A stretch of 64,000 bases of DNA from Pseudomonas baltica. Lineage in GTDB: Bacteria; Pseudomonadota; Gammaproteobacteria; Pseudomonadales; Pseudomonadaceae. Every line of letters starts with the position of its first letter. Position 1 is the first letter of the stretch. Positions 37,543-42,589 of this stretch are shown in pieces. The stretch spans positions 310,001 to 374,000 of the forward strand of contig NZ_CP134771.1 of NCBI RefSeq assembly GCF_031880315.1. The letters run 5' to 3'. A model generated the notes under the pieces. That model did no database searches and had not been told where the DNA came from. It saw only the letters and a list, made by a program, of their open reading frames with translations. The position numbers were made by a program, and so were the translations under genes.

Positions 37543-38481
37543 TCACGTATGCGTGAACCAATCACTGCGTATACGGGCATTGATTTCAGCTCTCGTTAAA
37601 GTGTGTGTCGAATAGGCTGGAGGGAGACCTCTTGTGCTCTGATGTCCGAGAGGGGCTTCAACCTGGTAGGCAGGCGGAAGCTGACGAGTACCGTTTAGTA
37701 GCGCCGAAGTTTCATAATCCGGAATCAGGTGATTAAGGCCTGCGACGTTAAACGGCTCCGGTGGAACCGTCCCACGAGGCTGCATATAGCGGAACGGATT
37801 AAGATTTTCAGCGCCTGGACCTGGAGGAAGGTAAACGTCTGCGACACCGGCAACCATCTTGAGCATTCGAGCAGCAGTAGTACGGCGCTCGGCCACGAGC
37901 GGTAAGGTATGCGCCACAGTGGTCGCACCCATGATACGCGCTGTCAACTCGTCATGGTAACTGGCCAGACCAATTAACCTTTCCATACCAGGAGCACTTA
38001 TCAATGGCGGCGGTGAGCCAGAAGCAAATGGATATCCAGGTGGGAGCGCAGGCAGCGGTCGATATGAAACTGGGGGCCGGGCGAAGGTTTTTTTAAGCCA
38101 CTCCCATATTCTTCCTGAGGGATCAGAGCGATTGATCGGATCCCCCGCACAGTATACATACGCATTCAATCCTCCAGCGCTGAACGGACTCAATTCATCG
38201 GGTGCGCTGAATCGCCGCAACACCGGATTGAAAGCCCTGTAGCCATGACCCAATAAATAGTGGCCTGTCACTTGCTCACGTTTTTGCCCGCAGAAACTGC
38301 CAGAGGGCGAAAGCGAAAAGCCGAACGGGCAGTAGCTGATCCTGATGTGGGACACCTTTCCCACCCAATGCGTCACTGACCTGCCCTGCACCACGCCGGC
38401 CAAGATATTTGTTGATCCGTAGATGTGCACCACTGGGTCTCTCGAACTTTGGTTATCGGATCGACTATCCGCGTCGATCAA
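37543..38481 (-). CDS. Orphan Rhs-core protein with variable C-terminal tail
   Basis: 312 residues. Residues 65-125 contain the end of an Rhs repeat-associated core: LLGHGYRAFNPVLRRF, SAPDELSPFSAGGLNAYVY, GDPINRSDPSGR. The upstream YD-repeat cage is reduced to about 60 residues, and there is no signal or VgrG/PAAR domain. The last 180 residues form a unique, proline-rich tail (SYRPLPALPPGYPFASG, ARIMGATTVAHTLPLVAERR) of unknown function. Short solitary Rhs-core proteins are common in Pseudomonas; a toxin-tail role is possible but unproven. No immunity gene is obvious downstream (the next gene on that strand is the DUF1460 gene). It looks more AT-rich than its neighbours. Confidence 0.75.
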   Translation of the reverse strand: MIDADSRSDNQSSRDPVVHIYGSTNILAGVVQGRSVTHWVGKVSHIRISYCPFGFSLSPSGSFCGQKREQVTGHYLLGHGYRAFNPVLRRFSAPDELSPFSAGGLNAYVYCAGDPINRSDPSGRIWEWLKKTFARPPVSYRPLPALPPGYPFASGSPPPLISAPGMERLIGLASYHDELTARIMGATTVAHTLPLVAERRTTAARMLKMVAGVADVYLPPGPGAENLNPFRYMQPRGTVPPEPFNVAGLNHLIPDYETSALLNGTRQLPPAYQVEAPLGHQSTRGLPPAYSTHTLTRAEINARIRSDWFTHT

Positions 38482-38578: not shown

Positions 38579-38785
38579 TCAGCCATCCGATCCTATGGAC
38601 TGAGCGACGTCGTCCATTATCGCTTTGGCCATTTCGCCGAGGTACAGGGCTGACAGAGCCAGGTGCTTGGTCGGATCACTGTTGCCCAGAGCTGATTCGA
38701 AGATGAGCTTGTTGGCGCAGTCTTGCAGGATGGAGGCGTGTTCCAGCGCATCGGTGGCCGGGATGTGGGGGTTATCCAGCAGGTG
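38579..38785 (-). pseudogene. Truncated DUF3077-like gene
   Basis: A 68-codon open stretch on the minus strand ends with TGA at 38579 and contains IPATDALEHASILQDCAN and LSALYLGEMAKAIMDDVA. These fit the small DUF3077 proteins of Pseudomonas as I remember them. The frame is closed by a stop at 38788-38786 before any start codon, so the first ten or so residues are missing. It meets the transporter fragment head-on at about 38783-38790. Confidence 0.55.
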
Positions 38786-39106
38786 TCATCTGTTTTAATC
38801 GCATCTGCAGTCTCCTTCCTGGTGTCGGAATACGTCAACGCCTATCTGCTCTACAAGATCAAGGAACTGACCAACTCCAGATTTCTTTTCCTGCGGGTAT
38901 TCCTGAGCACGCTGTTCACAGTCATCCTCGACAGCTTTCTATTCTGCTTTATCGCGTTCTACGGAACATTGGATAATGCCGACATATTGAAGATGGTCTA
39001 CGTTCAAATCGCCATCAAAGTGATCTTGGCATTTATTAATATCCTCCCCGCTTACGGGGCCAGGGCATTATTCCGACGCTACATCCCGGCAAATCATCCG
39101 ACCTGA
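38783..39106 (+). pseudogene. N-terminally truncated queuosine-precursor transporter (YhhQ/VUT) fragment
   Basis: About 107 residues with three hydrophobic segments. SEYVNAYLLYKIKELTNSRF, RVFLSTLFTVILDSF and FCFIAFYG follow the C-terminal half of YhhQ/VUT family transporters. The first half of the family is missing. The coding frame continues upstream only through sequence that is antisense to the DUF3077 remnant. The nearest start (38723) would make a chimeric N-terminus, so function is doubtful. Confidence 0.55.
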
Positions 39107-39313
39107 AGCACAGTGGCGAGGTGCTTGAAATATTTTGTCACTTTTTCAAGCGCCACCGCCCAATCTGCATTGTGTTTTACCAAGCATCTGCACCGATGGA
39201 TAAATCATCAGTAACACCTAATTAAACCAATAGCGTAAGTTTCCGCCCTCGATCGATTCATTACAGGGCAATGCTTCCCTTTTGCCATCGATAAGAAGAT
39301 CAACTTAGGCGCA

Positions 39314-39368
39314 CCCCGGCAAACTTTGTCGGGAGTTCGGGCGCTACCAACACATCATGTGGGTAGCG
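39314..39368 (+). promoter_or_regulatory. Hairpin-rich leader before the 76-residue gene
   Basis: CCCGGCAAA/TTTGTCGGG (39315-39333) is followed by CGCTACC (39342-39348) and GGTAGCG (39362-39368). The second stem ends 20 bases ahead of the start codon. The layout recalls the leader of the next small gene. Confidence 0.45.
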
Positions 39369-39388
39369 TCATGACCGAGGACAAGACC

Positions 39389-39619
39389 ATGACTCATGAA
39401 AATAAACGAAATGCCATTGCCTATGTACGCGCGGACATCGACATGCTGTGCGAGCAAACAGAGGACAGCGAACGACGGGCCTTTCACAACCGTGCCCATG
39501 GTGGCCTGTTTGCCATTCGGGCCGGGGGCTTGATCACCGATGCAGAACTTCAGGTGATTGCGCAGGAACTTGACGCGGCGAATACCAAAGCGTGCGGCCA
39601 GGTGCGTGCTCGCCGGTGA
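39389..39619 (+). CDS. Small hypothetical protein
   Basis: 76 residues, soluble and helical: MTHENKRNAIAYVRADIDM, then RRAFHNRAHGGLFAIRAGGLITDAELQVI. I do not know its function, though similar small proteins are, from memory, found in other Pseudomonas. ATG at 39389 has AGGA eight bases upstream; another ATG at 39371 would add six residues (MTEDKT). It is preceded by two hairpins and followed by the leader of another small gene. Confidence 0.6.
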   Translation: MTHENKRNAIAYVRADIDMLCEQTEDSERRAFHNRAHGGLFAIRAGGLITDAELQVIAQELDAANTKACGQVRARR

Positions 39620-39620
39620 T

Positions 39621-39701
39621 GGGCGTAGTCGCCCAGGCGCACTCCCCAGGCCCGGCATGAAACCGGGTCGGCTTGGCAACAGGGGGACGATACCCGCCCC
39701 C
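39621..39701 (+). promoter_or_regulatory. Three consecutive hairpins before the 64-residue gene
   Basis: GGGCG-tagt-CGCCC (39621-39634), CCCGG-catgaaa-CCGGG (39651-39667) and GGGGG-(10)-CCCCC (39682-39701) fill the gap between two small genes. The first and second stems flank AGGCGCAC, which also occurs ahead of the previous small gene. No run of T follows any stem, so they are not ordinary terminators. Confidence 0.5.
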
Positions 39702-39722
39702 ATAACTGCAAGGACATACACG

Positions 39723-39917
39723 ATGACCCAGACAGTGGAACAAGCGCAGGCCGCTCTCGACGCCGCGAAGGCCAATTACCTCGCAGAATTGGAGCGCGAT
39801 TGTGAGCGTCGAGACGGCAGTTTCGCCCAGGAGCAACGCCGAGAGGAGCATCAGCAACGTTTGCGTGAGGCAGTTGCCCAGTGCGAACGCGACCTGGACG
39901 CGGCAAAGAAACCGTAA
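39723..39917 (+). CDS. Small coiled-coil hypothetical protein
   Basis: 64 residues, strongly charged and helical (TVEQAQAALDAAKANYLAEL, then HQQRLREAVAQCERDLDAAK), predicted to form a single coiled coil, perhaps a helical hairpin. No domain is recognised. ATG at 39723 has AAGGA upstream. It belongs to the run of small genes ahead of the NdpA-like pair. Confidence 0.6.
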   Translation: MTQTVEQAQAALDAAKANYLAELERDCERRDGSFAQEQRREEHQQRLREAVAQCERDLDAAKKP

Positions 39918-39977
39918 TCATTCAACGCGCGCAAAGAACCAAGGCGCGACATTCGCATCTCGACACCAGGAGCACTC

Positions 39978-40119: not shown

Positions 40120-41166
40120 GTGAGTTTCTTTACTGATGAAGAAATCGATTCGCTGTCCATCGAGAGTATGATTTTGCATGTCGTGGGCCCCCAGACGTTC
40201 ACAGCCAACCCAGCCCGCCAAGTGCAACACGAAGCGTTTTTTATCGGCAAAATTATCGATACGGCAGTGGATCCGGTGTTCAGCTTTGACACTCACTCTT
40301 CTACCAAACGCAAACTCGAAGACATCGCCAGCGGCAGGAATACCTTCGAACGCGGGGCTCAGGCGCTGGCGTCGAGTTTCAACAGCAAGCACGTGAGCAG
40401 CAGCAGTGATGGCGCGTTGTTCATCTTCGAAATGAGCGTCAAAGACCCCAACGTGCGCATCTACAGCTTGATCAAATATGATTATCGCGAGGCGCTGCAG
40501 CAAGATCCGAAGCAGCCGGACGGCGTATTGCTGCGGATTATCAATGCCTTTATCGACGACAACCGTGCAGTGCAGAAAGCCGCATTGATCCGCGTAGTCG
40601 CAGGTGTTGCCGAGGATGAAGTATCGGCCCGTGATCGGGTAAAACGGGCCGCGCCAGAGCTCTCGGACTACTTCCAGGACTTCCTCGGGGTAGCGCGCGA
40701 AGTCGACGATGCAGAGCTGAGCCAAAAGGCACTTGAAGTGGTTCAGGCGACGTTGCAGAAGTTCAAGGCTGTTCTTCCCGATAAGGATGTTTCCACCGCA
40801 CTGGCGACAGCGCGGGGGATTCTTGGCCAAGCGCCGAAGGTCAATAATCAAGCGATCATCGACGCGATTATCGAGGGCGCGGGTAACCCGACCGATGCCA
40901 CATTGACCAAGAAGATCACGGACGAAACCCAAAAACGTATCCGCAGGGCCAAACTCGAAAACCTGACCTTCAAGCCGGTGCGCAAGGTATTGCGTCAAGC
41001 GCCCACCAGGCGCCTGAAAACCACCGAGGGGGTGATCGTGATCTTCCCGGACGACGCCGCCGGATCAACCGTACAGATCCTCGACAATGGCGCTGCCGGC
41101 AAGCGCATCATCATCGACACCAAGCAGATCACGGAAGACGACCTTGTCGCTAGACGCGCTGGCTGA
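40120..41166 (+). CDS. NdpA/YejK-like nucleoid-associated protein
   Basis: 348 residues, soluble. The pattern fits the 37-kDa nucleoid-associated protein family (NdpA/YejK): SIESMILHVVG at the N-terminus, DGALFIFEM (97-105) where YejK has DGGFVLF, and ELSDYFQDFLGV (180-191) where YejK has KVADFFMDFLGA. The remaining third (LENLTFKPVRKVLRQAPTRR...GKRIIIDTKQIT) is also of the family type. The start is GTG at 40120 with AGGAG six bases upstream. YejK itself is a core protein of uncertain role; this divergent copy is in an accessory stretch and overlaps the next gene by 23 bases, so the two must work together. Confidence 0.65.
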   Translation: MSFFTDEEIDSLSIESMILHVVGPQTFTANPARQVQHEAFFIGKIIDTAVDPVFSFDTHSSTKRKLEDIASGRNTFERGAQALASSFNSKHVSSSSDGALFIFEMSVKDPNVRIYSLIKYDYREALQQDPKQPDGVLLRIINAFIDDNRAVQKAALIRVVAGVAEDEVSARDRVKRAAPELSDYFQDFLGVAREVDDAELSQKALEVVQATLQKFKAVLPDKDVSTALATARGILGQAPKVNNQAIIDAIIEGAGNPTDATLTKKITDETQKRIRRAKLENLTFKPVRKVLRQAPTRRLKTTEGVIVIFPDDAAGSTVQILDNGAAGKRIIIDTKQITEDDLVARRAG

Positions 41167-42589
41167 GCTGCTTGATACGCTCGCCAGCGAACACGGCGTA
41201 TGGATCAATGAAACCCCAGACTGCGTCCTGACATCCAGACTCGACGCCTGTTGCGCAGGCAGATTGGCGATGGCTGTCGAACACCTGGGCTGGTGCTATC
41301 AGCTGGTGGACAGCGCGAACAATCCATTCACGCTCGCCAGCCTGGATCAAGACTTCGCGCCCTATCGGCTGACGCTGCATAAAGTCCCTCCACGAGATGA
41401 CGGCGCGCTGTATCTGCTCACTGCCACAGGCTTCAGCGATACCCTGGATCGCGGACACCCGGCCGATCGCTGGCGGCTGGCGCGGCTGGAGCACTCCTTC
41501 ACGACCCAAGGACGGGCATACGGCAATTGGCAAGCGCCGCTGTCTTTCAACAAGGCTGCCGAGACCCAACCTCCGCGCACACTGGTCCGAGAAACAGCAG
41601 CCAACCGCCGTGTGCCAGAAGATATCCGGTTCTGGCTACTGGCTCAGCACAGCCATATAGATATGACGGATCCTTTGCACAGCATCTGGGCCAGCAAGGC
41701 CTTTGACGCGCTGACCCGCGCCTTGGCCAACGAGCTGGGTGCAGACGATGGCGCGCTGATGTTCCATGGCCCGCCGGCACTGCGCTTGCCAGCGTGTGAC
41801 TTGCCCCCCGCGCAACGGCCGCAGATAGACCCTCTCGGGTTCTCTCAGCTTCAATCCGCGGCGCAATGGGTCTATGAACTGTCCCGAGAGGCTGCCCTTC
41901 GCCACTCGATGCTCTCAGCGGAAATTGCGCGTGCAGGGCGGGAGCCCTGCGAACCGGCGAGGTACTTCGCCGCCCACCTGGCTAACGCATTGGACAGCGC
42001 GAAAACGGTGTATCAGCTGTATATGAGCGGGCTGGGCATCGATACGCTGAATTCGCTGACTGCCCTGCGCGGGAGTGTCTGTGATGATGCGGCCAGAACC
42101 ACCGAAGCGACACAGCAGGCCCTGACCAAGGTCGCTGCGGCGCTAGGCGTGGGGCTCACCGTCATCGCCACACGCATCAGCAGCGACATCAGTCCATGGC
42201 TCGTTTTCGCAGCCATGCTGGTCGCCTGTATCTATTGTTTTATCGAACTGTGGGCCGGCTGGCGATTGATCCAGATCCGCCGCAAGGCTCGCGATGCCTG
42301 GCATCCGCGGTTGTATCGGTTTTTGCCGTCAGCGGATTACAGAGAGATGGTCACTGCGCCTACTGAACACTCGGAATGCGTGTACCTGTGGTCTACGGGC
42401 GTCGGGTTTCTGATGGTGGTTTTGTTGAGTACCGTTGCAGTGGTTAACAGTTTCCTATACGTCAGCACGGAGCCTGTTTCAGTCGAGCCAGGACCGAGCA
42501 CAGAAACAGAGGATCAGGGGCCTACGCGCGAAGGAACTGAATATCCCCCACTCATGCGGCTCACGATTGGGCAACGGTCCACACATTGA
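41144..42589 (+). CDS. Unknown protein with C-terminal membrane helices, partner of the NdpA-like protein
   Basis: 481 residues from TTG 41144 (GGAAG eight bases upstream); the first 23 bases lie inside the preceding gene. Residues 1-320 are soluble with no domain I recognise. Two clear membrane helices follow at about 351-373 (PWLVFAAMLVACIYCFIELW) and 416-440 (STGVGFLMVVLLSTVAVVNS), with a possible third at 328-346. The helices are joined by a basic loop (RLIQIRRKARDAWHPRLYR); the tail is acidic and proline-rich. A large cytosolic part anchored by C-terminal helices, coupled to a DNA-associated protein, recalls sensor-effector pairs of phage defence, but that is inference. An alternative start at 41087 would overlap more and lacks support. 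Confidence 0.6.
   Translation: MSLDALAELLDTLASEHGVWINETPDCVLTSRLDACCAGRLAMAVEHLGWCYQLVDSANNPFTLASLDQDFAPYRLTLHKVPPRDDGALYLLTATGFSDTLDRGHPADRWRLARLEHSFTTQGRAYGNWQAPLSFNKAAETQPPRTLVRETAANRRVPEDIRFWLLAQHSHIDMTDPLHSIWASKAFDALTRALANELGADDGALMFHGPPALRLPACDLPPAQRPQIDPLGFSQLQSAAQWVYELSREAALRHSMLSAEIARAGREPCEPARYFAAHLANALDSAKTVYQLYMSGLGIDTLNSLTALRGSVCDDAARTTEATQQALTKVAAALGVGLTVIATRISSDISPWLVFAAMLVACIYCFIELWAGWRLIQIRRKARDAWHPRLYRFLPSADYREMVTAPTEHSECVYLWSTGVGFLMVVLLSTVAVVNSFLYVSTEPVSVEPGPSTETEDQGPTREGTEYPPLMRLTIGQRSTH

Follow-up and report, generated by a model that had tools for sequence, protein, structure and literature searches.

Among the described systems closest to the gene pair reported here, Kiwa combines KwaA, a membrane tetramer that senses at the membrane, with KwaB dimers that bind incoming DNA without cutting it, as set out in the accessible part of its description (PMC12904381). 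The accessible part of the DefensePredictor report (PMC13092281, Science 2026) states that 42 of 94 tested Escherichia coli units protected against phages, one new domain among the protective units being the YejK nucleoid-associated domain. NdpA proteins occur on mobile elements (PMC9927451, PMC10561277), and NdpA2 of the integrative and conjugative element PAPI-1 acts together with TprA against MvaT (PMC8565334), according to the available sections of these papers. Our analysis concerned two overlapping genes, here called N and M, in a 64,000-nucleotide stretch of Pseudomonas baltica DNA (assembly GCF_031880315.1, contig NZ_CP134771.1, positions 310,001 to 374,000, forward strand; hereafter the window), which encode a divergent YejK/NdpA-fold protein and a partner with predicted membrane helices. 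We consider, with a probability of about 0.5, that N and M constitute a translationally coupled, horizontally mobile two-gene anti-phage system; the broader proposition, a unit serving either defence or superinfection immunity, is probable. An anti-phage function is favored because of the unitary organization of the pair, its mobility, and the company it keeps with defence genes, and the DefensePredictor unit, as far as its report is accessible, provides the strongest outside support. The features of the pair are as follows, in window coordinates.

40120-41166, plus strand: gene N, GTG start, 348 amino acids (aa); divergent YejK/NdpA-fold (NA37, PF04245) protein
41133-41146, plus strand: putative translation-coupling site; Shine-Dalgarno (SD)-like GGAAG at 41133-41137, encoded within the 3′ terminus of N and separated by six bases from the TTG of M (41144-41146)
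41144-41166, plus strand: 23-base overlap between the end of N and the start of M, in different frames
41144-42589, plus strand: gene M, TTG start, 481 aa; soluble N-terminal part (approximately residues 1-290), then a helical region with three predicted membrane helices and, last, a disordered tail

N matched the Pfam family NA37 at 33.7 bits (cut-off, 24.6), and the one clear structural match of its model was E. coli YejK. The second NA37 protein of the genome, encoded about 2 Mb away at C1:2344869, scored 330 bits and is apparently the housekeeping NdpA, so that N can be regarded as a divergent second copy. For M, no family was above the cut-off in Pfam or NCBIfam and nothing convincing was found in PADLOC or PHROGs, the best match in any of these four libraries being no better than E 0.009. 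Across 47 M sequences (M and 46 relatives), any Pfam or PADLOC model was matched by one or two only, with best E values of 1.2e-4 (RTA1) and 0.002. An alignment of 60 sequences, including M, nevertheless contained 35 columns conserved in at least 85%. Three hydrophobic segments were predicted in M (residues 327-345, 349-367, and 420-438), and its AlphaFold2 model (predicted local distance difference test, 83.8) contained long C-terminal helices at residues 299-344, 351-390, and 396-439, with no Foldseek match at E ≤ 0.001 in PDB or BFVD. A known fold for M, sought with the whole protein rather than its N-terminal part alone in PDB (by sequence and Foldseek), in BFVD, and with VIA-align, was rejected, as only matches to long helices or short common motifs were returned. 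No recognizable catalytic motif was seen in N or M. The preliminary description of this DNA, made from the sequence alone, had reported a divergent nucleoid-associated protein and a 481-residue partner with C-terminal membrane helices, overlapping by 23 bases and starting with GTG and TTG; the length, overlap, and start codons proved exact, and the NA37 scores and predicted hydrophobic segments bear out the remainder.

Our comparative data indicated that N and M very probably form one functional two-gene unit. A search of GTDB species genomes with the M alignment yielded 33 named loci in alpha- and gammaproteobacterial hosts, and an N homologue was located directly upstream of M, on the same strand, in all 33 (in L019, N is broken into two open reading frames [ORFs]). 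At E ≤ 1e-10, 22 genomes in a set of 298 Pseudomonas genomes carried M and 24 carried N; every M-carrying genome was among the 24 with N, and in these shared genomes the two genes had neighbouring coordinates (Fisher p, 2.5e-31). N is accordingly not distributed as a stand-alone core gene, being found in 24 of the 298 genomes, 22 of them with M adjoining. The two genomes with N and without M at this cut-off carried a short N fragment (G104, locus L057) and an N followed by two M pieces that were found with a more sensitive profile (G202, locus L068). Joint recurrence, on which the preliminary description had made its proposal depend, was therefore found in every named locus and in 22 Pseudomonas genomes. 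Pairwise distances of N and of M over 42 loci were strongly correlated (r = 0.956; best of 2,000 permutations, 0.271), although these loci were hand-chosen and partly dereplicated, and shared host ancestry can raise such a correlation. With the diverged copy L002 as reference, the ratio of nonsynonymous to synonymous substitution rates (dN/dS) was 0.078 in N and 0.204 in M, and with the near-identical copy L001 it was 0.10 and 0.25, respectively, which indicates that purifying selection acts on both ORFs; together with the recurrence of the pair, this argues that neither ORF is a chance occurrence. A third gene of the system was sought by all-against-all comparison of the ORFs of at least 60 aa in the 33 named loci, setting aside those overlapping N or M, and this candidate was rejected, as no other family occurred in more than 5 of the 33.

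The junction of the two genes suggested how their expression is linked. In the window, the SD-like GGAAG lies in the codons of the ITED motif of N. When start codons were counted in the window and L001-L033 without L019, in which N is broken, the codon at the aligned M start was TTG in 29 of the 33 loci (exceptions: L023, L026, L028, and L032), TTG accounting for 17.8% of the leucine codons in these genes. An SD-like run inside the 3′ end of N was present in all 29 TTG loci (GGAGG in 21, GGAAG in 6 including the window, and GGAGA in 2), and the overlap between N and M measured 23 or 32 bases in 27 of the 33 named loci. The E. coli copy of M has an annotated ATG start behind GAGGA. Judged from this arrangement, N and M are most likely translationally coupled.

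The pair showed the sporadic distribution and horizontal transfer that mark defence systems. Of 398 genomes drawn from the phylum, four carried M, and three of these were Pseudomonas. The window N was 48-50% identical to the copies of one Pseudomonas group (L003-L014), 35-44% identical to 11 alphaproteobacterial copies (named genomes, chromosomal contigs), and 19-28% identical to seven copies in other Pseudomonas (L102-L111). That the window N is closer to alphaproteobacterial copies than to some Pseudomonas copies indicates transfer, and by these identities the relatedness of the copies is not a plain reflection of host taxonomy; Pseudomonas alone holds at least four divergent groups, as estimated from pairwise identity and not from a tree. 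Over 21,468 aligned bases, the identity between L001 and the window was 98.7%. The 3.1 kb downstream of the pair in L002 was 92% identical to the window, compared with 79% for the N-M pair, suggesting that the pair there diverges or is exchanged faster than its neighbours.

The carriers of the pair included plasmids, a phage, prophages, and chromosomes. Searches of plasmid records by tblastn matched 12 records with the window N, 11 with the window M, and 10 with an enterobacterial M. Six of the N matches and two of the M matches were opened and examined by profile confirmation, and pairs were found on plasmids of Methylocystis heyeri, Pantoea ananatis, Rhizobium ruizarguesonis, and Xanthomonas campestris (in which M shows a weak likeness, 30 bits) and on the IncC plasmid pKAZ5; some of the carrier plasmids are conjugative. 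Copies on Sinorhizobium pSymA and on a Bradyrhizobium plasmid look broken. A Klebsiella variicola plasmid (L165) carries an M fragment only, with no N annotated, adjoining IS26 and an aminoglycoside-resistance region. One of 50,697 phage records, a Thiobacimonas phage, contains the pair near a Cro/CI gene; it was found through an M relative, and tblastn of the window N against the phage records gave no match. Two temperate phages of Pseudomonas protegens are described, in the accessible part of the source (PMC10305613), as carrying an NdpA/YejK gene in the integrase cluster; these genes may represent another NdpA group, since the N search found no phage record. IMG/VR contributed seven loci, with N beside M in six and the seventh ending at a contig edge.

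One of these IMG/VR pairs, L172, was matched in 32 of 5,426 E. coli genomes, with 29 matches covering at least 80% of the query; identity was ≥99% in 30 matches and 60-80% in two. DNA searches of E. coli with the Pantoea, Klebsiella, and IncC copies gave no match, and homologues were found only with the IMG/VR copies. The three E. coli loci opened (L174-L176, with the pair at 12001-14464 of L175, from strain S42) all lie in a Rac-type prophage with annotated intR, recE, recT, and racC, where the pair sits between a hok gene and the gene for antiterminator Q, on the opposite strand to those phage genes. Relative to this Rac pair, the window pair is 27% identical in N and 19% identical in M. The site between hok and antiterminator Q/DUF977 holds variable cargo in E. 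coli, its flanks being 1.5-3.8 kb apart; among the 40 matches listed, four besides the query strain hold both flanks with different genes between them. In Pseudomonas, 13 of the 22 copies are on contigs over 1 Mb. Taken over these comparisons, the pair is widespread and mobile, and sequence comparison indicates that it is conserved as a unit, accessory, present on mobile elements, and found in distant hosts.

The neighbourhoods of the pair were enriched in known defence genes, as counted in PADLOC models. The four nearest ORFs on each side, called with a custom script and not a standard gene finder, were taken from 18 of the 20 Pseudomonas loci (143 ORFs), L105 and L109 being left out with their controls for near-synteny with other loci. 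At E ≤ 1e-12, these flanks matched 88 PADLOC models, compared with 6 for 144 control ORFs elsewhere in the same 18 genomes; these figures count models, not proteins, as one protein may match dozens, and the control covers Pseudomonas only. The control regions were chosen at random, except that the region of G056 overlapped a test flank and was moved by hand, and their matches comprised mad3 in three ORFs, three RtcR-type models in two, and DpdF and mad2 in one each. A second set of 20 loci, hand-picked among the named non-Pseudomonas loci and the plasmids (144 ORFs, with ORFs over 1,500 aa skipped and one of the 145 listed ORFs, L159:14226-14957, left out), matched 297 models at the same threshold. 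Among the first 25 models listed for this set, those for PtuA, PtuB, DrmA, DrmD, the PLD helicase, and a type I methyltransferase were matched in two ORFs each and mad3 in three; across both sets, the first 25 models of each list included GajA, GajB, PtuA, PtuB, DrmA, and DrmD. In one Pseudomonas genome (G282, locus L099), a GajA-GajB-like pair (an AAA and OLD-like TOPRIM protein followed by a UvrD helicase) starts about 1.5 kb downstream of M, from which a single ORF separates it. On the Methylocystis heyeri plasmid (L159), the pair adjoins DUF262 genes, a PLD-type anti-phage gene, and an anti-phage-associated DUF1156 gene.

The window itself offers no such neighbourhood. Its pair is not in an obvious defence island, the neighbours being genes for an AmiA-like protein, a beta-lactamase-fold protein, a TetR regulator, and an amino acid permease, and the locus adds nothing to the island argument. 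The phage-defence role proposed in the preliminary description thus gains from the genuine two-gene unit, the defence-rich flanks elsewhere, and the plasmid and prophage carriers, but draws no strength from the surroundings in which it was proposed.

The same description had called the system undescribed, which is now doubtful because the accessible part of PMC13092281 reports a YejK-domain unit validated as protective in E. coli and because the pair is present in that species. Both N and that unit feature a YejK/NA37 domain (PF04245 and the YejK fold match for N), and the unit is accessory in E. coli, as is the divergent N-M pair there. Because an N-M pair exists in this host, the DefensePredictor unit may belong to the N-M family; the likeness is one of domain and host, and the accessible text names no partner gene. 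A literature search of open PMC papers, preprints not included, found no description of the N-M pairing among the results listed.

Membership of the pair in Kiwa was rejected by sequence, using Pfam and profile comparison. N had no match to the KwaB family PF16162 at E ≤ 1, and its own genome contained no PF16162 match. The hhalign probability of 14 KwaB sequences against the N profile was 0.2, in a comparison so insensitive that N against the NdpA of the same genome reached only 12.7 and 28.5; KwaA against M gave 0.1, PADLOC returned no match for M, and no KwaA was among the matches of the 47 M sequences. The gene order is also reversed, as KwaA precedes KwaB in all 14 loci extracted, and M, with 481 aa, is longer than the KwaA ORFs of 193-211 aa. 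Of the 298 Pseudomonas genomes surveyed for N and M, 12 contained KwaB. Three Pseudomonas loci (L088-L090) contain a KwaB group of 336-337 aa with a longer KwaA-like partner (211 aa), scoring 58-64 bits against PF16162 compared with 95-148 bits in the other full-length Kiwa loci. The housekeeping YejK/NdpA proteins share the fold and Pfam family of N, but N differs from them in being accessory and tied to M.

How the pair might act can be outlined tentatively as a membrane sensor joined to a DNA trap. M would be anchored in the inner membrane, its large N-terminal part facing the cytoplasm, a topology suggested by the basic residues between helices 2 and 3, and would sense infection there. It would hold or recruit the YejK-fold N at the membrane, and N could then bind entering or replicating DNA and block its replication or transcription; no enzyme would be needed, since no catalytic motif was recognizable in either protein. 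Assigning M as the membrane sensor or anchor and N as the DNA-binding effector is preferred because M diverges faster than N and because of the Kiwa precedent, although the reverse assignment is also possible. By analogy, we infer that the logic would be that of Kiwa, reached with proteins that appear unrelated by sequence. Whether the pair stands for a mechanistically undescribed class of immunity, in which a housekeeping-type nucleoid protein with the YejK fold joined a membrane sensor whose own fold may be new, the two forming a membrane-tethered DNA trap, is more doubtful still.

The reverse arrangement would amount to abortive infection, in which N on the DNA detects that the state of the nucleoid is foreign or altered and then frees M to permeabilize the inner membrane with its three helices. 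A membrane protein is the last component of many known abortive systems, and M combines three predicted C-terminal membrane helices with a long soluble, possibly regulatory part; the coupling of N and M fixes their ratio, as would be expected if N restrains M. We nevertheless consider this explanation unlikely, as M diverges faster than N (dN/dS of 0.20 versus 0.08 against L002; mean identity of 27% versus 34% over the 42 loci), a pattern more typical of a sensor than of a pore that kills the cell, and no pore-like fold stood out among the structural matches of M.

Rather less probable is superinfection exclusion or lysogenic conversion, in which a resident prophage or plasmid uses the pair to block DNA entry or early expression of related phages and not as a general defence; this would be a special case of the anti-phage system that we favor, not a full alternative. 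The position beside antiterminator Q in the Rac-type prophages of three E. coli loci, on the opposite strand, fits this view, as do the Cro/CI neighbour in the phage, the seven IMG/VR loci, and the plasmids, some of them conjugative. However, the flanks match many general defence models, and contigs over 1 Mb carry 13 of the 22 copies in Pseudomonas, although these may or may not lie inside prophages. A role as a regulator of mobile-element genes, with N countering H-NS/MvaT-type silencing as PAPI-1 NdpA2 does, M tuning or tethering N, and no immunity conferred, appears highly improbable: NdpA2 is likewise an accessory NdpA on a mobile element (PMC8565334) and other NdpA proteins travel on such elements (PMC9927451, PMC10561277), but the accessible text on NdpA2 names the regulator TprA as its partner and mentions no membrane protein, the flanks of the N-M pairs are unrelated to one another apart from ORFs overlapping N or M, and their surroundings are rich in matches to defence models.

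If N and M do form an anti-phage system, nucleoid-associated proteins would be parts of membrane-linked immunity and not only organizers of the chromosome, and the annotation of a nucleoid-associated protein with an adjoining hypothetical protein, in many genomes and plasmids, would point to a candidate defence system. The M family, conserved but without a match to a known fold in our searches, would become a defined target, and the Rac-prophage pair of E. coli would make the function directly testable in a laboratory strain.

The surroundings of the pair in the window contain broken genes, an Rhs orphan, and small ORFs, as the preliminary description had stated. No syntenic empty site of the window was established in a search with the downstream genes, the permease and hydrolase/TetR parts being matched separately among the matches listed. 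The small-ORF region upstream of N (39157-39921) was not seen in the 33 named loci apart from L002 and the near-identical L001; in L002 it is present at 73% identity, beside the pair copy of that locus. An ORF of 127 aa at 38723-39106 (plus strand) matches only about the C-terminal half of the Vut_1/queuosine precursor transporter profiles and is apparently a truncated gene. The 312-aa ORF at 37543-38481 (minus strand) is an orphan Rhs end, with a match to the Rhs-associated core (TIGR03696, 55.4 bits, residues 62-123) followed by a long C-terminal part without a match.
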